Part shown: positions 47,408 through 58,713 of the stretch, piece after piece
Layout: every line of letters starts with the position of its first letter
Numbering within the stretch: position 1 is the first letter of the stretch
DNA from: Saccharothrix violaceirubra
GTDB taxonomy: Bacteria > Actinomycetota > Actinomycetes > Mycobacteriales > Pseudonocardiaceae
DNA length: 64,000 nucleotides
NCBI RefSeq assembly: GCF_014203755.1
Contig: NZ_JACHJS010000001.1
Span: forward strand, 3,658,001 to 3,722,000
Reading direction: 5' to 3'
Position numbers and translations under genes: made by a program
The notes under the pieces: generated by a model
What the model was told of the DNA's origin: nothing
The model's input: only the letters and a program-made list of their open reading frames with translations
The model's database searches: none

Positions 47408-48265
47408 TCACCGGCTCAGCACGGTCTCCTCGGCCATGTGCGATAGCTTCTCCGGGTTGCGCACCGCATAAAGTCCCGCCACCAAGCCGTTCTCCACGTG
47501 CACCGCCACCACGCTGTCGAGCACCCCTTCCACCCGCACGACCAGCGCCGGGTGGCCGTTGACGTATGCCGGCTCAAGCACCAGGCCGACCGCGCCCTTC
47601 AGCAGCACCCGTGCGGCACGGTCCGCGCCGACAACGGGCTTGGGCAGGGCCTGTTTGATGCCACCTCCATCGCCCACCAGCACGACATCGGGGGCGAGTA
47701 CGTCGAGCAGGCCCTGGAGGTCGCCGGTCTCCACGGCCCGGCGGAACGCCTCAAGCACGTCACGGGTCTCGTCCGGCGACACGGTCTCGCGCGGTCGGCG
47801 GGCGGCCACGTGCGAACGGGCGCGGTGGGCGATCTGGCGTACGGCGGCGGGGTTACGGTCGACGGCCGCCGCGATCTCGTCGTAGTCCACGGCGAACACC
47901 TCGCGTAGGACGAACACGGCGCGTTCCGTTGGCGTCAGGGTTTCCAGGACCAGCAGCATCGCCATCGAGACGCTGTCCGCCAGTTCGACGTCCTCGGCCA
48001 CGTCGGGTGTGGTCAGCAGTGGTTCGGGCAGCCATTGGCCGACGTAGGACTCCTTGCGCCGGCCCAGCACGCGCAGGCGGGTGAGTGCCTGCCGGGTGGT
48101 GATCCGGACCAGGTACGCCCGTGCGTCGCGCACCTCGCCGTGGTCGACCCCCGCCCAGCGCAGCCACGTCTCCTGGAGCACGTCCTCCGCGTCGGCGGCC
48201 GAGCCGAGCATCTCGTAGGCGACGGTGAACAGCAGGTTGCGGTGTGCGACGAACGCCGACGTCAT
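47408..48265 (-). CDS. sigJ: ECF41-family sigma factor (SigJ-like) with fused SnoaL-like domain
   Basis: A 285-residue ECF sigma factor. Region 2 (residues ~5-70: LLFTVAYEMLGSAADAEDVLQETWLRW) and region 4 (~105-160: TLTPTERAVFVLREVFAVDYDEIAAAVDRNPAAVRQIAHRAR) are followed by a ~110-residue SnoaL-like C-terminal extension that ends with the NPEKL motif, diagnostic of ECF41. In this group the extension, not an anti-sigma factor, controls activity, and the target is usually an adjacent carboxymuconolactone decarboxylase/oxidoreductase/epimerase gene. That neighbour is present (48409) but broken by a mobile element. Its own upstream region has an ECF41-type promoter, so it should be autoregulated. 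The symbol reflects similarity only. Confidence 0.92.
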   Translation of the reverse strand: MTSAFVAHRNLLFTVAYEMLGSAADAEDVLQETWLRWAGVDHGEVRDARAYLVRITTRQALTRLRVLGRRKESYVGQWLPEPLLTTPDVAEDVELADSVSMAMLLVLETLTPTERAVFVLREVFAVDYDEIAAAVDRNPAAVRQIAHRARSHVAARRPRETVSPDETRDVLEAFRRAVETGDLQGLLDVLAPDVVLVGDGGGIKQALPKPVVGADRAARVLLKGAVGLVLEPAYVNGHPALVVRVEGVLDSVVAVHVENGLVAGLYAVRNPEKLSHMAEETVLSR

Positions 48266-48291
48266 GACTCCTCCTCAGTGGTCGCACACCG

Positions 48292-48318
48292 GACGACGTG
48301 GCCCGCCGTTCTGTGACA
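48292..48318 (-). promoter_or_regulatory. ECF41-type promoter of the sigma gene
   Basis: On the minus strand TGTCACA (48318-48312), exactly 16 bp, then CGTC (48295-48292), matching the ECF41 consensus I know (TGTCACA-N16-CGTC). It lies 27 bp upstream of the sigma-factor start and faces leftward. This supports autoregulation. Confidence 0.8.
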
Positions 48319-48342
48319 GCCGACCGCAGTGGCGCTCGTCAC

Positions 48343-48369
48343 TGTCACACGGGCCGGGGAAGCGCCGTC
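48343..48369 (+). promoter_or_regulatory. ECF41-type promoter of the AhpD-like gene
   Basis: TGTCACA (48343-48349), 16 bp, CGTC (48366-48369), 39 bp upstream of the ATG at 48409. It is the mirror partner of the sigma gene's own promoter. It now drives only the truncated 5' part of the AhpD-like gene and reads toward the mobile element's left end. Confidence 0.82.
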
Positions 48370-48408
48370 TCGTGTTCGTCCCACCACCGACGAAACGAGG
48401 ACGACGTC

Positions 48409-48693
48409 ATGAGCGCCCGATTCGACTTCCCGCACAACGAGTTCGCCGCCAAGTTCACCAAGCGGTTCGTCGGCCTGGCCCAGGTGATGCGGCAGTCGTC
48501 GTTGTCGCACACCGTCCAGGAGCTGGTCTCGTTGCGGGCGAGCCAGATCAACGGCTGCGGGTTCCACTTCGCGCAAACATGCACATCCAAAGTGGACGGC
48601 AGTCCCCGAAAGTGCCAGGTCAGAAGGGCTGGCAACGAACTGACACATAGGAGCGGCAAGGGCACCCGAGGGCAGACCGCGCGGCCGACATGA
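48409..48693 (+). pseudogene. AhpD/carboxymuconolactone decarboxylase-like gene, 5' half cut by a mobile element
   Basis: Residues 1-51 are native: MSARFDFPHNEFAAKFTKRF...QELVSLRASQINGCGF, the typical N-terminal part of AhpD-like alkylhydroperoxidases, up to the first catalytic Cys of the C-G-F-C motif. From 48561 the frame runs into element DNA and ends at 48693 after ~43 foreign residues. The other half of the gene stands 9.8 kb away at 58377-58713. Without the second Cys and the His the product cannot be active. Just upstream is the ECF41 promoter. Confidence 0.9.
48559..48585. other. attL junction
   Basis: Left junction of the element. The host side ends ...GGCTGC-GG (GG at 48559-48560), the element side begins GTTCC..., and CATGCACA at 48578-48585 lies 17 nt from the GG. 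Its complement TGTGCATG lies 17 nt from the other GG, at attR, so the two arms rebuild a symmetric attP. Confidence 0.75.
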
Positions 48694-48891
48694 TCAACAA
48701 GCTGTCCCGTGACTGCCCACACACGTAGCACGATGAACAGAGGCGCGTTCGACGCGAACTTCTCAGTGGTTCACCTAGGCACCGCTATCGAGCCAGCGTC
48801 TCCGTGTCGACATGCACCGGTCGCACAGTCGGTGCATGTAGGCTGATTGGTCCATGCGGTGATCGGGCGCTGACCGTTAGGAGACTCTCGC

Positions 48892-50316
48892 ATGAGCGTG
48901 ACCGTAGGGGGGTCCGACTGGACGTCCGATGGTCGCACTTGCGCAGAGTGTGGAACTCCGCTTGAGGCAGGCAACAGCGCCCAGATGTGCAATCGGTGCC
49001 ATCGCGCATCGCAGGACCAGTTGCGCACGCCACCGATTCTCAAAGACCAATTTTTTGATACCGCCGAATTTCGCGCAGCGAGCGACAGTCAGCACATTGG
49101 CAGGATAATCAAGGTCTATAGGCATCACCCACGCCATCTCAAGCTTTACGGTAGGGCGTTGAGTCAAGAACTTGTTGGCCGTTGGCTAGGCCTCACTCAG
49201 GCGCAGATCAGCAAAGTCGAGAACGCGCCCAGAGCCGAGCAAAACCTAGAAGTACTTCGGCGCTATGCGAAGACTTTGCACCTGCCTCAAAGCCTGCTGT
49301 GGTTCAGTCTGCCTCCGCAGGGTCGTTATACCGAACGCGGGGTTTCCACTACGGGGATCGACGCCGCGAAACTCCGTCAGGATCTATCCGAAGTCCTCGC
49401 GTCCACGCTCATCAGCGAGCGAGGCGCCAGCGACTGGGATGAAGCCGTCTTCCGATTGGGGCGTGACACTCGTTGGCGCCCGCACGCTACGCTCGCTTCA
49501 GAAATTTTGGCGAACCTGTCGGAGCTTCGTGTCTTCTATGTTCGGGCCACGTCCGGTCACGTACTGCAGCGAATGGCCAGGAATACGGCGCAACTATCCG
49601 GGCTGATGAGTCAGACGTTGCTCAAGGTCGGAGATATATCAGGATCGGCAGATTGGTCGAGGACCGCGCGTCAATTTGCCAGTGAATCCAACGATTTGAA
49701 CTTGCGAGCGTGGGTGCACGCACAGGAAGCCTATCTGCACTTCTATGCAGGAAATATGCACACCGCAATCGATGCGGCGCGATACGCTCAAGACATCGCA
49801 GGGAAGTCGGGTGGAGTCGGTTCGGCACTGGCAGCGGCATTGGAGGCCCGCGCGTATGCGAACCAAGGATTGAGAGCGGACGCACTGCGCGCAATCGGCA
49901 TTGCGGAATCATTGACTGCCGGGCTTGACGGTGCGGCGACCATTGCGTCGGCTTTCGGATACTCTGAAGCCCAGTTGCGCTTCCATGAAAGTAACGTTCT
50001 CACCAAACTGGGCGAATTCCAAAGAGCGCTTGTCGCGCAAGATCATGCACTCCGCTTGACGCCCCATGATGATTTCATGGATCGCGCTCTTGTGTATTTT
50101 GATCGCGCAGACAGCCTGATTGCCCAGGGTGATATCGTGAATGGTCTCGCAATTGCGGCAAGTACTCTCGGTGAACTTGAGACGGGCAAGGCTGCTGGAC
50201 TGATAGTCGATCGTGCTCGATTGACGTTGCGAATGCTTCCTGTAAGCGAGAGTGGTCGAGTCGAGGCCCTGGCCCTCCATGAAATTATTGCCGCATCGAA
50301 CGAGTTCGAAGGGTGA
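48892..50316 (+). CDS. XRE-family regulator with zinc-ribbon start and TPR-like C-terminus
   Basis: A 474-residue protein. Residues ~16-40 hold a CAECGTPLEAGNSAQMCNRCH zinc ribbon (two CxxC pairs), residues ~85-135 an XRE helix-turn-helix (LSQELVGRWLGLTQAQISKVENAPRAEQNLEVLRRYAKTL), and the remaining ~330 residues are helical TPR-like repeats. The plan resembles actinobacterial regulators that sense peptides or partner proteins through TPRs. Lower GC than the host genes indicates recent acquisition. It lies at the left end of the element, coupled to the GNAT gene 4 bp downstream. Confidence 0.85.
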   Translation: MSVTVGGSDWTSDGRTCAECGTPLEAGNSAQMCNRCHRASQDQLRTPPILKDQFFDTAEFRAASDSQHIGRIIKVYRHHPRHLKLYGRALSQELVGRWLGLTQAQISKVENAPRAEQNLEVLRRYAKTLHLPQSLLWFSLPPQGRYTERGVSTTGIDAAKLRQDLSEVLASTLISERGASDWDEAVFRLGRDTRWRPHATLASEILANLSELRVFYVRATSGHVLQRMARNTAQLSGLMSQTLLKVGDISGSADWSRTARQFASESNDLNLRAWVHAQEAYLHFYAGNMHTAIDAARYAQDIAGKSGGVGSALAAALEARAYANQGLRADALRAIGIAESLTAGLDGAATIASAFGYSEAQLRFHESNVLTKLGEFQRALVAQDHALRLTPHDDFMDRALVYFDRADSLIAQGDIVNGLAIAASTLGELETGKAAGLIVDRARLTLRMLPVSESGRVEALALHEIIAASNEFEG

Positions 50317-50320
50317 CCCG

Positions 50321-50788
50321 ATGTCGCAGTTTGTAACAAAGCTGGCAGTTGGTGATGACGTCCGAACGGTTGCGGAACTTCTGAATGAAATTGATGCATT
50401 TTACGGTGATGAAGTTATCGAGTCGTTTGAGGAGCGATTGGCTCGGGTAGATTCGACGCTCTTCGGCGCTCACCCTATGGTGTATGCCATTCTGGCCCGC
50501 GCAGACAATGGGGACGTTGTCGGGTTGGCGACAATCTCTTACCTGTGGCCTGCGGCCGGATCGACAAGCTCACTGTATCTGAAGGAACTCTTTGTCCGCC
50601 CGGGCCATAGAGGCAAGGGGGCAGGAAAAGCGCTCATGCAAGCCGTGTTTGACCAGGCTGACAAGAGTGGGTGCAGTCGCGTTGAATGGACGACCGACCG
50701 ATCCAACGAAGAGGCGCAGCGGTTCTATGAAAGCCTGAGCGTTGCCCCTCATGATGGAAAGATATTCTATCGTCGTACGATCAGCTAG
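50321..50788 (+). CDS. GNAT-family N-acetyltransferase (element cargo)
   Basis: A 155-residue complete GNAT: SSLYLKELFVRPGHRGKGAGKALMQAVFDQADKSG is motif A with the R-G-K-G-A-G acetyl-CoA loop, and CSRVEWTTDRSNEEAQRFYESLSV is motif B. The ATG is 4 bp after the XRE-TPR gene stop, so they form an operon. The pairing of an HTH protein with a GNAT recalls GNAT toxin/antitoxin pairs, but this GNAT looks like the ordinary small-molecule type and the partner is far larger than a TA antitoxin. Confidence 0.88.
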   Translation: MSQFVTKLAVGDDVRTVAELLNEIDAFYGDEVIESFEERLARVDSTLFGAHPMVYAILARADNGDVVGLATISYLWPAAGSTSSLYLKELFVRPGHRGKGAGKALMQAVFDQADKSGCSRVEWTTDRSNEEAQRFYESLSVAPHDGKIFYRRTIS

Positions 50789-50815
50789 CGGACAGGGTGT
50801 GTTCTGGTAAGCCCG

Positions 50816-51259
50816 CTAGTACTCGTCGTACGCTTGCCATTCGACACACTTGGGTCGTACACGCGTCTCAATCCACTCTGTGAGGGCGTGCCGTGCGTCG
50901 ACTATGGAGATGGCACAGATTGATGGAAATACTGCGCCGGTTTGACCGCTGAAGATAAGATGCAGTTCGGGTGGCGCCAGGCTGCTTGTCGAAATGGTGC
51001 TGGCAACCGGCATGGTGCCGTCCTCGTGGTCGACATAGTTGATCGCCGCGTAACCGTACGCCGGATCGACGCTGATTCTGAGCTTATGATTGGGATACGG
51101 CCCGGTCGGGGTCGTGTAGAACTCCTCGTCACCGACCGACATGACCGTTTCCCAGTGGACGTGGTCAAGGGCCAGGACGTCCTCGATCAGTCGCATGCAT
51201 TCATCCCTACCGGATGCCACGCGCGCGATTCCCGTTGTCAGGGATGCTGTGACTATCAT
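50816..51259 (-). CDS. Imm1-like immunity protein
   Basis: A 147-residue acidic protein. The C-terminal AVFPSICAISIVDARHALTEWIETRVRPKCVEWQ and the middle RISVDPAYGYAAINYVDHEDGTMP fit the Imm1 family (immunity proteins, often for deaminase toxins), as I remember its pattern. No toxin gene is adjacent within the element; orphan Imm1 genes are common in actinomycetes. It is convergent with the GNAT gene and alone on its strand. Confidence 0.65.
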   Translation of the reverse strand: MIVTASLTTGIARVASGRDECMRLIEDVLALDHVHWETVMSVGDEEFYTTPTGPYPNHKLRISVDPAYGYAAINYVDHEDGTMPVASTISTSSLAPPELHLIFSGQTGAVFPSICAISIVDARHALTEWIETRVRPKCVEWQAYDEY

Positions 51260-51344
51260 TCGCCATCCTGTGCTGACCCAATTCGTTTCGGCGTCAACGA
51301 GTGGGCGAATAACTACAGTGCGGAGGTCTCCGGACAGACTGGAT

Positions 51345-52163
51345 CTAGTCCCGGTCGTCGAGATCTTCGGCGACTATCCCGTATTCTACGATCGGAAATG
51401 TCGTGGTCACGGAAGGCATCTTCCGTCCGTCGCGCGTCGAACGAATCAAGAAGTCTATTTCTGCGCTCCGGTCGGGCGTCAGCCGGGCGGCGAGAGCGCG
51501 TGCGCTGTTCAGGCTCTGCCGTGCGCCGAATTTCCGGCCCCGGGCATGGGCTATACGTGCGTGGAGTACATGGGCTTTGACTTCGTCCAGGCAGGTGCGG
51601 CCGGTCTCGGCGGAGACTTCGTCGTGCTGCTTTTCGGCGATGATGGCGTATTGTTCCGCCGCCTCGAATCGTCCGGCGCACAGAAGTACGGCGCCCAGTT
51701 CCCGGAACGCGGTGGCGCGGTGGCCTTTCCATCCCCACCGGTCGTAGCACGCGATGGAACGGTCCAGGCAGTCGACCACCCTGTCCTGCCGTTCCCGTGC
51801 CCAGAAGGCGCCGGCGAGGTTCTCGATCGCCGCCACGTAGCCGAAACGGTTGTGGTCGGTGGGATCGGCGGCCTCGCGGCGGCCCCAGACCTCCACGCAC
51901 CGCTTCCATTCCTCTTCCGCCTGACGAAGCAGTCCGAAGCCCGCCAGCGCGGTTGCCGCATCCTCGAACAACGTCGACGCCGCTTCACCGGACGGCGAGG
52001 TCGCGGTGATCTCCTTGTGCAGTTCGCGCAGTCCGTTGACCATGTGCACCGAATACGGCCCGTAGCCGGTCCACAGCCTGTGTGCGACGAGTACCGCTTG
52101 GTCGACGTCGCCCGTCCTGACCGCGCGTCTGGCATTGGCTAGTCCATTGTGGAATGTTTCCAC
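51345..52163 (-). CDS. TPR-repeat protein
   Basis: A 272-residue all-helical protein with 5-6 TPR-like motifs (for example FGYVAAIENLAGAFWARERQDRVVDCLDRSIACYDRWG and ATAFRELGAVLLCAGRFEAAEQYAIIAEKQ), without another domain. The GTG start overlaps the preceding gene by 25 bp and has AAAGGAGAA in front. It is the last gene of a three-gene leftward operon in the element. A protein-binding or regulatory role is inferred. Confidence 0.8.
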   Translation of the reverse strand: METFHNGLANARRAVRTGDVDQAVLVAHRLWTGYGPYSVHMVNGLRELHKEITATSPSGEAASTLFEDAATALAGFGLLRQAEEEWKRCVEVWGRREAADPTDHNRFGYVAAIENLAGAFWARERQDRVVDCLDRSIACYDRWGWKGHRATAFRELGAVLLCAGRFEAAEQYAIIAEKQHDEVSAETGRTCLDEVKAHVLHARIAHARGRKFGARQSLNSARALAARLTPDRSAEIDFLIRSTRDGRKMPSVTTTFPIVEYGIVAEDLDDRD

Positions 52164-52504
52164 TTCGAACCGTTCTCCTTTCCTGTGGTGGGGGTGGCGC
52201 CGCCGGTCGGCGGGCCACCGTCGCGGGTGTGGGTGCCCGATGTCGTGTCGCGGAACCGTCTGGCCCTCTCGGCGGCGGTGAAGTAAGGACGCACGAGCGC
52301 CGGCGCCACCTCGGGCAGTACTCCGACGATCGGGACGAACAGGGTCGGTTGTTCCCGTGACGCGGGCACGGTCAGCGGGTCGCTTTCCGGCGACGTCGGC
52401 ACCGGCCCGACCGGTCCCGGAACGAGGTCGAGAACAGACACGAGAACATGAACCCGAACAGCGGCAGCAGTGCGGCGACCGCGACCGTCTGTTCCATTCC
52501 CCAT
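52139..52504 (-). CDS. Small hypothetical protein of the TPR operon
   Basis: A 121-residue protein with a hydrophobic stretch near residues 17-35 (VRVHVLVSVLDLVPG), a VGVLPEVAPALVRPYFTAAERARRFRD segment that resembles a conserved LVRPY...A..R motif of small actinobacterial proteins next to mobile-element regulators, and a disordered tail. It lies 10 bp after the stop of the upstream gene. Another frame here encodes a short hydrophobic peptide, so the start is not certain. Confidence 0.6.
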   Translation of the reverse strand: MGNGTDGRGRRTAAAVRVHVLVSVLDLVPGPVGPVPTSPESDPLTVPASREQPTLFVPIVGVLPEVAPALVRPYFTAAERARRFRDTTSGTHTRDGGPPTGGATPTTGKENGSKWKHSTMD

Positions 52505-52514
52505 CGCGCGGTGG

Positions 52515-52958
52515 TCACCGGCGGGCCGGCCTCGGCGACGGGACGGGAACGGATGCCCCGATGGCGCCGGTGATCCTCAGCCATCGCGTGGCGATGGTGT
52601 GGACGACGTCGATCACGGAACCGTAGGCCTCGGCGGTCGGTTTGGAGTCGACCAACCGGTGTGCCTCGCACCACTCGATCTCCTGGACTCGAACCGCCTC
52701 CACTATTCCCGCCGCCGGTTCCTTGCGGAACACCAGGCACGGCAATTCCGTGGCGGTACCGCCGTGGGGGTAGGCGATGTAACCGTCGGACACGAGATAG
52801 ACCAACGCGGTCATCGTGCCCGAATGGCTCGCGATGTCGGCCGGGGTTATGGAGGCCAGCGCCTCCGCGTCGACGAACGGGTTGAGCAGCCTGCCGGGCA
52901 AGGAGCATCCCGCCTTTCCTAAGGGCGTGTCGGTGACGCCGGGTTCGGTCGGCACCAC
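52515..52958 (-). CDS. Hypothetical protein, first gene of the leftward TPR operon
   Basis: A 147-residue protein with a compact, clearly coding segment (LLNPFVDAEALASITPADIASHSGTMTALVYLVSDGYIAYPHGG..., ELPCLVFRKEP). No family recognised. The start could be the GTG at 52958 or a TTG ~19 codons further in, which has an AAAGGCGGG ribosome site. A hydrophobic C-terminal third and Arg-Pro-rich end are seen. It heads the operon of three genes. Confidence 0.6.
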   Translation of the reverse strand: MVPTEPGVTDTPLGKAGCSLPGRLLNPFVDAEALASITPADIASHSGTMTALVYLVSDGYIAYPHGGTATELPCLVFRKEPAAGIVEAVRVQEIEWCEAHRLVDSKPTAEAYGSVIDVVHTIATRWLRITGAIGASVPVPSPRPARR

Positions 52959-53346
52959 CGTGGTGGCCTGACACCGGCGAGGTCTATGTCAATCTGGGAA
53001 TGGGACACTCCGGCACAGGAATAACTCCTGGTCAGCGCCTCGGCGGTACCAGTCGGATCAACCGATCGGAGTACGCCGGCCCGGTGTGGGACCCCTGCCC
53101 CGGCACCGTCGCGACCGGCCGGCCGGGAGGCCGCTGCCGCGACATTCCCGGGATGAATATCCGGCCGGTCGACATTCCTTCTCGGAATACCCCGTCCCGC
53201 CGCGCCCCCGGTGACCTGCGGTATTCCTCCACCGGCATGAGGGCATTCCCGATCCATCATGGTCGCCGGGGTGCCGGCCGGTGGTTACTCGATGGCGACG
53301 GCTCGTGGTCCCGCGAGCCGTGTTCATCGGGCAAAGGACATCGATC
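52959..53346. other. Divergent control region in the centre of the element
   Basis: The ~390 bp lie between the leftward TPR operon and the rightward transfer operon and must hold both promoters. Several GGAAT/ATTCC words recur (near 52997, 53018, 53143, 53176, 53190, 53222, 53248), which could be repressor sites or a coincidence. No ORF with a recognisable family is present. Confidence 0.4.
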
Positions 53347-53544
53347 ATGGATTTTTCGCGTTCGAATTCGCTGACGATCAGGCAAGCGGCGTGGTTGTTG
53401 GGGTGCGGGGAAGCGGGGGTGTGGCGGGCCGTCCGGACCGGGGTGCTGCCGACGGTGGCGGGCAGGGGCAGGGGCGGGGTGCGGGTGCCGGTGTGCGCGG
53501 TCGCCCGGCTCGTGGAGTCCCCGGAGCGGGGTGCACGCCGATGA
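53347..53544 (+). CDS. Small helix-turn-helix protein (excisionase-like)
   Basis: A 65-residue protein with SLTIRQAAWLLGCGEAGVWRAVRTGVLPTVAGRGRGGVRVPVCAVARLVES, a winged helix of the HTH_17/MerR-like kind used by excisionases and small regulators. The ATG at 53347 is used; an upstream in-frame start lacks homology. It opens the transfer operon: its stop overlaps the WhiB start (ATGA). A recombination directionality factor for the serine recombinase, or a simple repressor, are both possible. Confidence 0.75.
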   Translation: MDFSRSNSLTIRQAAWLLGCGEAGVWRAVRTGVLPTVAGRGRGGVRVPVCAVARLVESPERGARR

Positions 53545-53909
53545 CCGACAGCGACAGCGGGGACGTGTTCGACCGGGTGGCGGTCGACCTGGACCGGGTG
53601 GCGGGGCTGGCGGACGCCGAGCTGGTGCACGCTGTGCGCGTCGACGGGTCGTGCGGCTGGCTGGCGACCGGCGACCAGGCGCCCGGGTGGACCGGCGACG
53701 ACCGGGCGGACCGCGTGGTCGCCGCGCGGGTGTGCGCGGGCTGCCCGGTGCAACGGGAGTGCCTGGAATGGGACCTGCGGGGGATGCGGGCGCACGGCGA
53801 GCCGGCCACGGCGGGGGTGTGGGGTCCGTTGGCCCCGCAGGACCGTCGGCGGGTGTTCGTGCGGTGGTTGGACCGGCGCGGGGGCGGACACCCGGCGGGG
53901 GGCCGCTGA
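53541..53909 (+). CDS. WhiB-family iron-sulfur regulator
   Basis: A 122-residue WhiB-like protein: a first Cys in VDGSCGWLATG, then CAGCPVQRECLEWDLR giving three more, so the four Cys of the [4Fe-4S] site are present; the GVWGPLAPQDRR segment is the G[I/V]WGG-type turn before the basic DNA-binding tail. Such genes are frequent in actinobacterial integrative elements. Overlaps its neighbours on both sides (ATGA and TGATG), so it is translated as part of the operon. Confidence 0.9.
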   Translation: MTDSDSGDVFDRVAVDLDRVAGLADAELVHAVRVDGSCGWLATGDQAPGWTGDDRADRVVAARVCAGCPVQRECLEWDLRGMRAHGEPATAGVWGPLAPQDRRRVFVRWLDRRGGGHPAGGR

Positions 53910-54217
53910 TGGCCTCGGGCGGGGTGCTCACGGCGGTGGCCGGGTCGGTGGCGGTGCTGGTGCTCGTGGTGGTGTGGCGGCGGCGGTCGGTGCGGCGGTC
54001 GCGGGCCGGTGGGGTGCGGGTGTTCTCGTTGGCCGGGCGGACGGTGGTCGGGGCGTCGGTGATCGTCGCGGGTCAGTGGCTGGCGTTGACCCACCCGGAC
54101 ACCACGACGGTGGTGCGGGTCGCCGCGTTGGGCCTGCCGGCGTTGGTCGCGTCGTGGTCGTTGGTGCGCGCGTTGACCGTGACCGTCCTCGACGACCGTC
54201 GGAGGGACCGGCGATGA
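53909..54217 (+). CDS. Small membrane protein of the transfer operon
   Basis: A 102-residue protein with three hydrophobic helices (about residues 5-23, 44-60 and 72-90) and positively charged ends (WRRRSVRRSR, DDRRRDRR). No family recognised. Wedged by overlap between the WhiB and FtsK-type genes, which suggests it serves the translocase, like the Spd proteins of actinobacterial conjugative elements. Confidence 0.75.
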   Translation: MASGGVLTAVAGSVAVLVLVVVWRRRSVRRSRAGGVRVFSLAGRTVVGASVIVAGQWLALTHPDTTTVVRVAALGLPALVASWSLVRALTVTVLDDRRRDRR

Positions 54218-56571
54218 CCCCTCGACCGGAACGCGGCGAGATGGTGCCGATGGTGTTCGACGGCGCGATGGTCGACGACGAAACCGTTGCGGCACAGGGA
54301 CAAGGTGTACCGCGGCTTGCCTTTCCGCGGTGGCGAGCGGTGGTCGGCGTGGCCGGGGACCGGGTGCGCGCGGCGGTGCGGTGTCCGGCCGTGGTCCACG
54401 CCCGGTCGGTGGCTCGCTACCGGGTGCGTCAGGCTCCGCGCGACGCCGTGCGGCTGTCGTGGTTCCTGGTGCGCGGCGTGGGCCGGTGGGGTGCCAAGGG
54501 GTGGCGGTGGGCGTCGCACGCGGACCTGCGCGCCGATGCCCGCGCGGCACGGCTGGCCGGGGACGTGCAGGCCCGGCGCACCGCGCAGGAGACGATCCGG
54601 GCCGACGCACGCGTTCGCTGGGCCAGGGCCGGCGGGGTGGTGCGGCGGGTGGCGGTCGGCGCGGCCGTGGCCACGGTGGTGCTGGTGCTGCTGGCACTGG
54701 GCGAGATGGTCGCCGGGCGCGAGGTCATGCCGGGGTGGTTGCGCGCGGTGTACGCCGTGCGCGACGCGATCGGGCACGGGGTGGCCGTGGGGTGGCCGTG
54801 GGTGTGGCGGTCGACGGTGTGCGCGTTGGTGTGCGCGGCGGTGTGGGAGGGACGCGACCGCACACCGGGCGCGTCCTGGATCACCCGCCCCGACCGCGAC
54901 GACGACGGGTCCTGGGTGGACGAACGCATGATCTCCAAGGCGTTGGCGCACCTGGGGATCGCGCCGTTGAACGCGTTCCTGCGCGGCGGCGGGGAGTTGG
55001 TCTACACCGTGCCCGCGCGCCGGGACGGCGACGGCACCCACGCCCGCATCCGTCTGCCGTTGGGGGTCACGGCGGACATGGTCTGCGACCGCCGCCGGGT
55101 GTTGGCGGGCAACCTCGGGCGCGCGTCGTTGGAGACCTGGCCGACCACCGGCGAGGAGGACGGCGTGCTGGACCTGTGGGTCGCGGACAAGGGCACGCTC
55201 TCCGGCGGTGCGGGTGGCTGGCCGTTGCTGCACGAGGGAACCGTGGACGTGTTCGACGGGGTCCCGGTCGGACTGTCGCAGCGCGGGGTGGTCGTGGCCC
55301 CGCCGTTGCCCGAGTCCAACTGGTTGATCGGCGGCCGGCCGGGGCAGGGCAAGACCAACCTGCTGCGGGTGCTGCTGCTGGGCGCGGCGCTGGACCCCAC
55401 GTGCGAACTGTGGGTGTTCGTCATGGGCGAGAGCCCCGATTTCGAGCCCCTGAGGCCGCGTCTGAGCCGCTACCGCATGGGCCTGGACGACACCGTCGCG
55501 GCCGACGCCGTGCGGGCGTTGGAGGACCTGTGCGCCGAGATGGAACGACGCGGCCGGATTCTCGGGGAACAGCCCGGACGTCCGCCGAAGGTCTCTCGGC
55601 GCCTGGCCGACAAACCCGCCCTGGGACTGCACCCGTTGATCATGTCGATCGACGAGTGTCACGAACTGTTCCAGCACCCCCGGTACGGAAAGAGCGCGGA
55701 GGAGTTCGCCGTCCGGTTGATCAAACGCGGACGCAAGTACGGAATCGTCCTGCTGCTGGCCACACAGTCACCCACCAAGGACAGCATCCCCAGGGAGGTC
55801 ACCCGGAACGTCTCGTGCGGCGCCGCCTTCGCGGTCGCGGACCACATCGCCAACGACGGGCTTCTCGGGTCCGGCAGGTACCGGGCGGGAATCCGGGCGA
55901 CGGAACTACGGATGCGCACCGACCGGGGAACCTGCGTCGCCGTCGGCGTCACAGACGCGACATTCGAACTCGTCCGCACGTTCTACGTCCCGTTCGAGGA
56001 CGGGGCCGACCTGGTGACACCGGTCGTCGTCCGAGCCCTCGAACACATGGCCAGCACAAGCCGCACCATGACCGCCCGCGAACCTATACCGGAAATCATG
56101 GCCGCCCCGGTCGACCACCTCGAAGACATCCACTCAGTAATCGGAGATGAACCCCGTGTCCGCACTCAGGTCGTACTCGCACGTCTCGCAGCCCACAACC
56201 CTGGCGAATACGAACCGTGGAGCGCACGTGATCTCCGGGCCGCTCTGCTCCGGCACGGGGTCCACTCGTACAAGTCGGACGGGGCGATGGTCGTACGGGT
56301 GGCCGATGTCGTCTCCGCGTTGGCTCGCCGCCCACAGGCGATCGGCGTCGACGAGGACGCCGCAGACGTCCCAGCGGACGACAGGGAGGCCGGAGGGACC
56401 CAGGGAGTCATCCCTGCCTCCTCCGGGCGGCTGAGCCCCTCTCGCAGCCTGCGGAAAGGGCCATCCCAGGGAGGCCCCAGCCAGACTGACGACGAACCCG
56501 CCAACGGCCCGCACAGGCACCTGGACGGTCGCTCGGCGGACTCCCTCCCTCCTGATGTCGGTGCGTCGTGA
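54214..56571 (+). CDS. FtsK/SpoIIIE-type (TraB-like) DNA translocase
   Basis: A 785-residue ATPase. Two membrane helices lie near residues 145-170 and 195-215. The motor has Walker A GGRPGQGKTN (~371-380) and Walker B HPLIMSIDE (~470-478), with ATQSPTKDSIPREVTRN as the downstream FtsK-type sensor. A C-terminal ~100 residues (SARDLRAALLRHGVHSYKSDGAMVVRVADVVSAL) look like a small winged helix, as in TraB, which reads DNA sequence. Proteins of this type move double-stranded DNA between mycelial cells. The GC falls toward the 3' end. Confidence 0.9.
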   Translation: MTPRPERGEMVPMVFDGAMVDDETVAAQGQGVPRLAFPRWRAVVGVAGDRVRAAVRCPAVVHARSVARYRVRQAPRDAVRLSWFLVRGVGRWGAKGWRWASHADLRADARAARLAGDVQARRTAQETIRADARVRWARAGGVVRRVAVGAAVATVVLVLLALGEMVAGREVMPGWLRAVYAVRDAIGHGVAVGWPWVWRSTVCALVCAAVWEGRDRTPGASWITRPDRDDDGSWVDERMISKALAHLGIAPLNAFLRGGGELVYTVPARRDGDGTHARIRLPLGVTADMVCDRRRVLAGNLGRASLETWPTTGEEDGVLDLWVADKGTLSGGAGGWPLLHEGTVDVFDGVPVGLSQRGVVVAPPLPESNWLIGGRPGQGKTNLLRVLLLGAALDPTCELWVFVMGESPDFEPLRPRLSRYRMGLDDTVAADAVRALEDLCAEMERRGRILGEQPGRPPKVSRRLADKPALGLHPLIMSIDECHELFQHPRYGKSAEEFAVRLIKRGRKYGIVLLLATQSPTKDSIPREVTRNVSCGAAFAVADHIANDGLLGSGRYRAGIRATELRMRTDRGTCVAVGVTDATFELVRTFYVPFEDGADLVTPVVVRALEHMASTSRTMTAREPIPEIMAAPVDHLEDIHSVIGDEPRVRTQVVLARLAAHNPGEYEPWSARDLRAALLRHGVHSYKSDGAMVVRVADVVSALARRPQAIGVDEDAADVPADDREAGGTQGVIPASSGRLSPSRSLRKGPSQGGPSQTDDEPANGPHRHLDGRSADSLPPDVGAS

Positions 56572-56753
56572 CCACCGATGAACCGACACCTCGGTTCGAG
56601 TCCGGCGAGGACACAACTGGCCAGATGAGGGAGGAATCCGACGGTCTACCCGAGAATCAACTTCGGTGGATCGCCGAGTTCCTGGCGAAGTTGGAGAAGA
56701 CAAGATTCTTCGACGAAGCGAAAGCGCGAGACATTCGCACGATGCTTGAATAG
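56568..56753 (+). CDS. Small hypothetical protein at the end of the transfer operon
   Basis: A 61-residue acidic protein, GTG start overlapping the FtsK-type gene stop (GTGA). The C-terminal half is a charged amphipathic helix (NQLRWIAEFLAKLEKTRFFDEAKARDIRTMLE). No family is recognised. The stop is followed directly by a strong terminator. Confidence 0.65.
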   Translation: MTTDEPTPRFESGEDTTGQMREESDGLPENQLRWIAEFLAKLEKTRFFDEAKARDIRTMLE

Positions 56754-56791
56754 AAGAGACCCCCGACCGGTCAGCCGGTCGGGGGTCTCTT
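56754..56791. terminator. Strong bidirectional terminator
   Basis: A perfect 17-bp stem (56754-56770 with 56775-56791) with TCAG loop, followed on the plus strand by TCCCTTTCTTTTC. It lies between the transfer operon and the convergent recombinase gene and can act for both. Confidence 0.88.
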
Positions 56792-56801
56792 CCCTTTCTT
56801 T

Positions 56802-58277
56802 TCAAGGCATGCTCTCCGGAAATATAAGTTGATCCGGATCGAACCGCACACCCTTGCCGCCGGAGCGCACTCCGACAACTGGGAACAGTCGTCGTATTAC
56901 ATCCCTTTTGGCGAGCGTTTCGGCATTCAGGAATTCATCTGCGTCACCGAGTTGCGACCTCTGGGGCTTCGAGGCGGCAATTTTGCGCTGAGCGGCGATC
57001 TTGGCCTGTGCATCCTGTCGAATATCTGCAAGTTCGCCGATGTCGATCCGGTCGTCTTTGAACGCCTGCACTGCGTCTGCGATCTTCTTCTGTTGCCGTT
57101 CGACCTCGATTGAAGTGGTGTCGACCTCAGGTCGGACAGGCTCGACAGGCAGGCGCTTTAGAGCCTCATAGGTCAATCCAACAAAGAAAGCCTCAAGAAC
57201 CTTGGCGTTTCGTGAGACATTTCCGCAACCGCCCTTTCCCACGAGGCAAACGTAAATGTGACTCATCGTCCGAGAGCCGTCTTTTCTTCGTCCTCCATGC
57301 TTAGGCCCGTAGCCCATCTTAGTTCCACACTGGCCGCAAACCAGAATTCCAGTCAGCAGGTGTCGAACTTTACCTTCGCCTGACCACTTCTTGTTTTTGC
57401 CAATAATCCCGGCGACTTCGTAATGTTCCGATTCGGTGAATATTTTGGGCCATCCCCCCTTGGCCACCACCGAACCCTTTGGTATCGTACGCCCTTCAAT
57501 CACGATGTCGCGACTGAATACCCGGAGTCCGGCGTACACCGGATCTTTAAGGAAGCGTCCTATGTCAGCGACGGAGTACAGCTTACCGTTCGGCTTGGTG
57601 TAGCCCATTCTCTTCAGGTCTTTTACTACCCTGTACGACGACATTCCGGCAACGATTTTCCGTCGCGCGTGTCGGAGCATCTTCGCCTCTTCCCAGACGA
57701 TCGCATCGTACTGGGATGTGTAGCCGGTCCGTCGTTGCCCTCCGTTCGGCGGCAGCCCTTCGATGGCCCGGAGTTCCTTACGGATGCGTTGCCGATACCC
57801 GGTCTTCTTGGCCTCGTTTCGGCTTACTACGCCCATGATTCCGGTGACAACATCGTCGCGAATTTCGCGCCCCGAGGAGTCGTAAGTGCGAACCTTGCCC
57901 ATTTCGGTAGTAATGTGGTAGTCCTCCAGAACGGAGGACTCGCGGCGACTTAGCCTGTCCTGGTCTCGAACTATAATAGAGCGACCGGACAGCCGTCCGG
58001 TGATGATGTCCGTCATCAATGCGTTGTAGCCGGGACGTTCAATCGCTTTCGAACCAGACTTGTCGTCGTCGTAGTACACACCTTCGTTCCCCACTGCGAT
58101 GTCAAGGCGCATCTTCGCGGTGCGCGCGAACTGAAGGCATCGAAGTACTTGGGTTGCGAAGTCGTCTCCAACGGACTTGCGAAGGTAGAACACGCAAAGC
58201 TGACGTGAGTCGTTCCCTTCTATTAGATACCTTCTGTCAGCCTGCAAAGCCTTCGGGAATATTTCGTCCACTGTCAT
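56802..58277 (-). CDS. Large serine recombinase (integrase of the element)
   Basis: A 491-residue large serine recombinase. The catalytic domain has CVFYLRKS with Ser35, SGRSIIVRDQDRLSRRESSVLEDY and the usual active-site Args; a Recombinase domain (GGQRRTGYTSQYDAIVWEEAKMLRHARRKI..VVKDLKRMGYTKPNG) follows, then a zinc ribbon (CGQCGTKMGYG...CLVGKGGCG) and a coiled coil (~400-455). ATG at 58277 follows GGGAGGAG. It lies ~100 bp from the right junction, as for actinobacterial serine integrases. GC is clearly lower than the host. It should join attP to the AhpD gene through a 2-bp overlap. Confidence 0.94.
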   Translation of the reverse strand: MTVDEIFPKALQADRRYLIEGNDSRQLCVFYLRKSVGDDFATQVLRCLQFARTAKMRLDIAVGNEGVYYDDDKSGSKAIERPGYNALMTDIITGRLSGRSIIVRDQDRLSRRESSVLEDYHITTEMGKVRTYDSSGREIRDDVVTGIMGVVSRNEAKKTGYRQRIRKELRAIEGLPPNGGQRRTGYTSQYDAIVWEEAKMLRHARRKIVAGMSSYRVVKDLKRMGYTKPNGKLYSVADIGRFLKDPVYAGLRVFSRDIVIEGRTIPKGSVVAKGGWPKIFTESEHYEVAGIIGKNKKWSGEGKVRHLLTGILVCGQCGTKMGYGPKHGGRRKDGSRTMSHIYVCLVGKGGCGNVSRNAKVLEAFFVGLTYEALKRLPVEPVRPEVDTTSIEVERQQKKIADAVQAFKDDRIDIGELADIRQDAQAKIAAQRKIAASKPQRSQLGDADEFLNAETLAKRDVIRRLFPVVGVRSGGKGVRFDPDQLIFPESMP

Positions 58278-58352
58278 CGGAGAACTCCTCCCGTCATGCG
58301 CGTTGATCATTTGTTCCACCCCAGCCCGGTCCTTGACGGTACCTCCTGGCAC

Positions 58353-58383
58353 TGTGCATGACATCAGTAAACAGAACGGCTTC
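58353..58383. other. attR junction
   Basis: Right junction of the element: TGTGCATG (58353-58360), 17 nt, GG (58378-58379), then the host codons resume (CTTCTGCGTCGAC). With the left side this rebuilds an attP of TGTGCATG-N17-GG-N17-CATGCACA; next to the GG it reads GAAC-GG-GTTC. Confidence 0.75.
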
Positions 58384-58713
58384 TGCGTCGACATGCACAC
58401 CAAGGACGCCACGGCCGCCGGTGAGACCGCGGACCGGCTCCACCTCGTCGCCGCCTGGCGCGAGGCGACCGTGTTCACCGACGCGGAGCGCGCCGCGCTC
58501 GCCCTGGCCGAGGTGGGCACGCGCCTGGCCGACACCCACCAGGGCGTGTCGGACGAGACCTGGGCACAGGCGCGCGAGCACTTCGACGACGACCAGCTCG
58601 CCGCCCTGATCGGCCAGATCGCGCTGATCAACGCCGCCAACCGGATGAACGTGATCGTCCGCAACCCGGCCGGGTCGTACCGGGCCGGGATGTTCGACGC
58701 CGTCACGGACTGA
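58377..58713 (+). pseudogene. AhpD-like gene, 3' half after the mobile element
   Basis: From the Gly codon of the C-G-F-C motif on, this is the missing part of the gene begun at 48409: GFCVDMHTKDATAAGETADRLHLVAAWREATVFTDAERAALALAE...QIALINAANRMNVIVRNPAGSYRAGMF. The second Cys and the His downstream are intact. In the integrated state the frame runs on from element DNA (open from 58303), but no ribosome site is seen, so expression is doubtful. Excision would restore a gene of about 163 codons. Confidence 0.9.

Follow-up and report, generated by a model that had tools for sequence, protein, structure and literature searches.

How did an AhpD-like gene of Saccharothrix violaceirubra come to lie in two halves on either side of an inserted element, and why does the cut fall between the two cysteine codons of its active site? 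The locus was analysed in a window of 64,000 nucleotides, i.e. the whole stretch of contig NZ_JACHJS010000001.1 under study, and coordinates are those of this window. The answer that is very probably right is that a serine integrase inserted an element resembling the actinomycete integrative and conjugative elements (AICEs) into a coding attB of an AhpD-like gene linked to an ECF41 sigma factor. The small AICE-like element, conjugative or mobilisable, would have been brought in by its own large serine integrase, the attB would lie in the coding sequence of the ECF41-linked gene, and the exchange would have occurred at a GG that attP has in common with the Gly codon separating the two Cys codons. 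While the element is present, the whole enzyme cannot be made from the split gene.

That the two halves make up one gene, as a preliminary description had proposed, is borne out by a profile search, in which the left and right halves covered complementary parts of the Pfam carboxymuconolactone decarboxylase (CMD) family, PF02627, and by the joined frame of 161 aa, which has 0 internal stops. The joined protein was also expected to align end to end with AhpD, and here the expectation holds in part: its orthologues match over nearly the full length and the AhpD core domain TIGR00778 is matched at 5.2e-21, but the full-length AhpD model TIGR00777 gave 24.5 bits against a cut-off of 191.95, and of the 8 families listed for the joined protein only the core domain was above cut-off. 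Judged from these sequence matches, the split gene is AhpD-like and not AhpD proper. When the 24 other genomes of the genus were searched with the joined protein, 10 proved to have an uninterrupted orthologue, 68-74% identical. In 12 more the best match was a more distant CMD gene, at 41-60%, and the remaining two, G156 and G166, gave no match at 1e-20. The genome of S. violaceirubra itself had nothing but the two halves. In 8 of the 10 relatives' loci the intact gene adjoins a sigma factor gene 75-79% identical to the one found here. Since the halves form one gene, and the gene is unbroken in the same context in relatives, both objections foreseen in the preliminary description, i.e. two unrelated complete genes, or no continuous gene in genomes lacking the element, are excluded. 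Across 30-base windows of the 10 orthologues, DNA identity near the cut (starts -40 to +20) was 84-90%, comparable with several later stretches of the gene, with most windows further 5' at 58-75% and one at 85%. By this measure the insertion site is well conserved, yet not uniquely so within the gene.

The junctions are equally informative. The bases common to both are CGG, and the core GG falls in the Gly codon of TGC-GGC-TTC-TGC (Cys-Gly-Phe-Cys), in agreement with the bounds and the crossing point first described. When the element ends are joined around GG to give attP, and the flanks joined to give attB, attP displays exact 8 bp inverted arms, TGTGCATG, each 17 nt from GG. Its arms are symmetric at 15 of 27 positions, a value that shuffling the bases of the arms reached 10 times in 20,000, and GG was the best-scoring symmetry centre of the offsets tried, which argues that the inverted repeat of the element ends is not due to chance. 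CG was also considered as the core and set aside, because the attP symmetry favours GG within the common CGG. The 3' half of attB carries the same 8-mer 12 nt from the core, where TGTGCATG corresponds, on the opposite strand, to the Met-His codons plus one base on each side; the 5' half is without a copy. This half-site is kept in 9 of the 10 intact orthologues. According to Rutherford et al. 2013 (PMC3783163), going from attP to attB moves the zinc-ribbon motif of serine integrases 5 bp towards the core, and the distances of 17 nt and 12 nt reproduce this published offset. The offset is an independent check, because the rule was not used in placing the site. Thus the locus has the 2 bp core, the inverted-repeat attP and the outer, zinc-ribbon-type motif 5 bp nearer in attB that are expected of a serine integrase, and the exchange itself would be placed at GG within the Gly codon. 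The complementary halves, the intact genes of the relatives, the attP symmetry and the placing of TGTGCATG, with the same offset recurring around a different motif in two Kutzneria relatives described below, are the main grounds for the insertion.

The genes of the element (Table 1) further support it. By tblastn against seven related loci, the integrase was found in all seven and a close TraB-like gene in four (a fifth locus had a distant match, 28%), and the element has a lower G+C than its flanks. The serine recombinase that the preliminary description placed beside the right half is a large serine integrase with Resolvase, Recombinase and zinc-ribbon domains, PF00239 being taken from precomputed domains, and its first ATG is 67 nt from the right core. 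The FtsK/SpoIIIE-type Tra protein typical of AICEs is present as well (PF01580, 1.6e-8). From the sequence, the integrase is predicted to be active, and the element may move with its FtsK/TraB-like protein. In the accessible part of PMC3218068, actinomycete elements with serine recombinases likewise combine a PF07508 integrase with an FtsK/SpoIIIE translocase, but there the gene targeted by the present element is not mentioned, and the present element has neither a RepAM nor a Prim-Pol domain in the 12 frames scanned. Further frames of the element had no family match. A scan for tandem repeats yielded nothing of weight, and defence-gene models gave only weak HerA/FtsK-like and HTH matches on the element. 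The Imm1-family, immunity-like protein recurs in related loci, and no partner toxin was recognised in the element.

Table 1. Positions of the split gene, the element and the neighbouring sigma factor in the window
Feature	Position	Strand	Remarks
ECF41-type (SigJ-like) sigma factor gene, divergent to split gene	47408..48265	-	TIGR02957 361 bits (cut-off 323); SigJ subfamily 300 (cut-off 271)
Second ECF41 motif, into sigma gene	48292..48318	-	exact match
ECF41 promoter motif TGTCACA-N16-CGTC, into split gene	48343..48369	+	exact to published motif
5' half of AhpD-like (CMD) gene	48409..48560	+	stops after TGC-GG; PF02627 profile positions 3-40, E 1.1e-5
attL crossover dinucleotide GG	48559..48560	.	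inferred from symmetry
Integrated element, 9,819 bp	48561..58379	.	G+C 63.9% vs 71.1% and 71.9% in flanks
attP-type outer arm CATGCACA, in attL	48578..48585	+	17 nt from core
HTH/TPR regulator (NsdA-like)	48892..50316	+	NF053720 71.8 bits, just below cut-off 75; in 3/7 related loci
GNAT acetyltransferase, probable cargo	50315..50788	+	PF00583 4.4e-20; 0/7 related loci
Imm1-family protein	50816..51259	-	PF14430 2.3e-16; 46-54% in L047, L053, L054 (3/7 related loci)
TPR-like protein	51345..52163	-	weak PF13424, under cut-off; 0/7 related loci
Small HTH_17 protein	53281..53544	+	PF12728 1.8e-5, under cut-off; matches in 4/7 related loci
WhiB-like protein	53541..53909	+	PF02467 2.7e-8 in longer frame
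FtsK/SpoIIIE-type translocase (TraB-like)	54214..56571	+	PF01580 1.6e-8; 60-64% in L046, L053, L054, L055
Large serine integrase, 502 aa	56802..58310	-	PF07508 + PF13408
attP-type outer arm TGTGCATG, in attR	58353..58360	+	17 nt from core
attR crossover dinucleotide GG	58378..58379	.	inferred from symmetry
3' half of AhpD-like (CMD) gene	58380..58713	+	PF02627 profile positions 36-83, E 1.4e-11
attB-type motif CATGCACA	58392..58399	+	Met-His codons + one base each side; 12 nt from core

Searches for further insertions of this kind covered genomes, contigs and records of several types. The integrase family was found in 6 of 150 genomes at E <= 1e-30 and in 8 of 390 at 1e-60, the own copy included in both, and in 397 genomes drawn from the order only the own copy was found at 1e-80; in the 390- and 397-genome searches up to 3 candidates per genome were scored, among the matches listed. 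A genome contig search gave one relative, Kutzneria buriramensis, and a viral contig search gave 0; 232 phage and 14 plasmid records matched, all below 60% identity, and the protein database held 16 proteins at 1e-60, own included, without genome context. Across the genome, contig, viral, phage, plasmid and protein searches no second AhpD-like insertion was seen.

The closest integrase relatives with genome context are in three genomes, namely a Kutzneria (G109, loci L046 and L058; integrase 63% identical), K. buriramensis (G126, L045/L047; 63-64%) and G148 (L057), where the integrase is in pieces, 50-66% identical, at a contig end. In all three the integrase end comes after the SHNC of a frame. 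The K. buriramensis frame, cut short, scored 357 bits against NF038136, the intein-containing Rv2578c radical-SAM family (cut-off 700), and the frames of G109 and G148 were likened to it by eye. In both Kutzneria the frame resumes beyond the far end at HNCFARNTHTYLDL, and the elements, of 13,848 and 22,220 bp, interrupt the codon of the intein +1 residue of the radical-SAM gene, a Cys. After splicing, judging by intact sequences, this Cys is the third of a CxxxCxxC motif, which we take to be catalytic in the radical-SAM protein. Their core is TG, and in both relatives GGTGTG is equidistant from it in the two attP arms and 5 bp nearer in attB; the attP symmetry is 19 of 27 in K. buriramensis, reached by 0 of 20,000 shuffles, and 14 of 27, unshuffled, in G109. 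Despite belonging to unrelated genes, the attB half of K. buriramensis and that of the AhpD-like gene both have GGTGTGC equally far from the core, and from GGTGTGC to the core they agree at 14 of 22 bases. Each gene has the His-Thr codons CAC-ACC 16 nt past the core, and GGTGTG is their reverse complement; since these codons, downstream of the Cys motif, are conserved, the site would be common among hosts.

The Kutzneria and G148 loci thus hold two kinds of selfish DNA, an integrase element and an intein, a few bases apart in one Rv2578c-like gene. Elsewhere, the radical-SAM/intein gene is in two overlapping pieces in different frames at G164:C1:2380500-2383000 (L070), suggesting a frameshift, and a copy in G163 (L071) matches in part only. 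Among the more distant integrases, those of L055 (G078:C92, 34%) and L054 (G030:C8, 36%) adjoin pirin-like and MFS-like frames, and that of L053 (43%) directly follows a small secreted-protein-like frame, all read by eye; as L054 and L055 have a close TraB-like gene, elements of this family may insert into several coding sequences.

Why then the active site? As the closest three integrase relatives are in an unrelated gene, the enzyme itself probably played no part in the choice of site; what probably counts is that the half-site TGTGCATG, which overlies the Met-His codons, is 12 nt from a GG. Most simply, the active-site position is a by-product of a short half-site that overlaps codons beside Cys motifs. 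It can further be hypothesized, tentatively, that the integrase clade switched between AhpD-like CxxC and radical-SAM CxxxCxxC targets and kept the half-site GGTGTG, with sigma signalling to the element as a possible addition.

Of the competing explanations, the one that fares best, although it is unlikely, is that the usual target is the radical-SAM/intein site and that the AhpD-like landing was an accident at a secondary (pseudo-attB) site. Three related integrases do sit at the radical-SAM site, and in S. violaceirubra this site is intact and empty; it reads TGTGCGAC, however, where the AhpD-like gene has TGTGCATG, and the attP motif TGTGCATG matches the AhpD-like half-site at 8 of 8 positions in the predicted place. 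Less probable still is a regulated switch, in which some condition makes the element depart and the peroxidase-like gene becomes whole again, as in developmental or phage-regulated splits. Excision would be expected to restore the gene, since the two halves, once joined, give one frame uninterrupted by stops; the integrase frame and the ECF41 motif are intact, and the best NCBIfam match of the integrase is XisF, the fdxN-element excision recombinase. That match is weak, though, at 40.3 bits, far under the cut-off of 375 and close to CcrB (34.8 bits), so that it seems common to large serine recombinases in general. The element yielded no identifiable directionality factor, the arrangement is found in one genome only, and the close relatives use an unrelated gene; the phage-like switch suggested in the preliminary description is accordingly not upheld. 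Two unrelated genes or a misassembly can practically be dismissed, as no support for them was found and the single-contig genome, the exact att anatomy and the nearly end-to-end orthologues speak against them.

Several points nevertheless weigh against the insertion of an AICE-like element by its own integrase at a regular attB. A single AhpD insertion was found, the three closest integrase relatives with context being in another gene, and attB is known here as a reconstruction from the joined flanks. PF00239 was missing from the profile search of the integrase and appears solely among the domains precomputed for this protein. No replication domain, RepAM PF12307 or Prim-Pol PF09250, was found among the 12 element frames scanned, a test that covered these two profiles, that for RepSA being particular to PMC3218068; the element is for this reason called AICE-like and not a canonical AICE. 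Lastly, the left half differs from the L018 orthologue without third-position excess (19/10/11 differences over 50 codons), whereas the right half has such an excess (16/11/31 over 108 codons), and by this comparison decay of the left half is possible.

The neighbouring sigma factor is of the SigX4/SigJ type, above two NCBIfam cut-offs, and SigJ is presumably linked to ECF41; the ECF41 assignment rests on context, motif and the SigJ match rather than on an ECF41 model. As described in PMC3426412, ECF41 sigma factors are paired with CMD and similar genes; many divergent pairs have TGTCACA-N16-CGTC ahead of each of their genes, and the partner gene is the only known and detectable target. The locus has the same layout, an ECF41-type sigma factor gene and a CMD/COE gene side by side and divergent with the motif before both; it differs in that the COE gene is broken by the element. 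In the 8 syntenic relatives the motif, with up to 1 mismatch, faces the sigma gene in 7 and the AhpD-like gene in 4. The gene broken by the element is thus the probable target of the neighbouring sigma factor. The intact ECF41 motif of the broken gene faces the left-end regulator of the element (48343-48892). A simple scan of 48200-49000 gave no terminator, a result of little power as 0.4 was expected by chance, and no sigma-70-type promoter. Transcription from the ECF41 promoter into the left-end regulator is possible, and the host sigma factor could signal to the element in this way; such read-in would not be a shared feature, because the Kutzneria elements are inverted relative to their gene.

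As to novelty, the preliminary description called this a defined new site. The exact attB has no earlier report that we found, but coding targets of serine integrases have long been known, and some actinomycete ICEs with serine recombinases sit in protein-encoding genes (PMC3218068). The phiJoe and SCO2603-type elements share a GG core in an imperfect inverted repeat and an attB in a conserved gene (PMC5311408), but phiJoe inserts 74 bp from the end of a radical-SAM gene, where it may do no harm, and not in active-site codons. The Samy integrase inserts into a radical-SAM gene of the Rv2578c family, which also provides the target of the Kutzneria relatives, but Samy is a phage (PMC12924846). 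Among the matches listed from the open-licence literature, in the portions accessible, no serine-integrase attB in an AhpD/CMD gene was found. As far as searched, this is a new attB for a known kind of element.

The locus thus provides a predicted, base-exact attP/attB pair for the integrase, checked by an independent anatomical rule, and a naturally occurring break in a gene that is probably an ECF41 target. The half-site shared by unrelated genes illustrates concretely how serine integrases may come to change their target, which is relevant to predicting the sites of uncharacterised integrases. If the clade did switch between the two genes, drift of the half-site would have led repeatedly to insertion in catalytic Cys codons.

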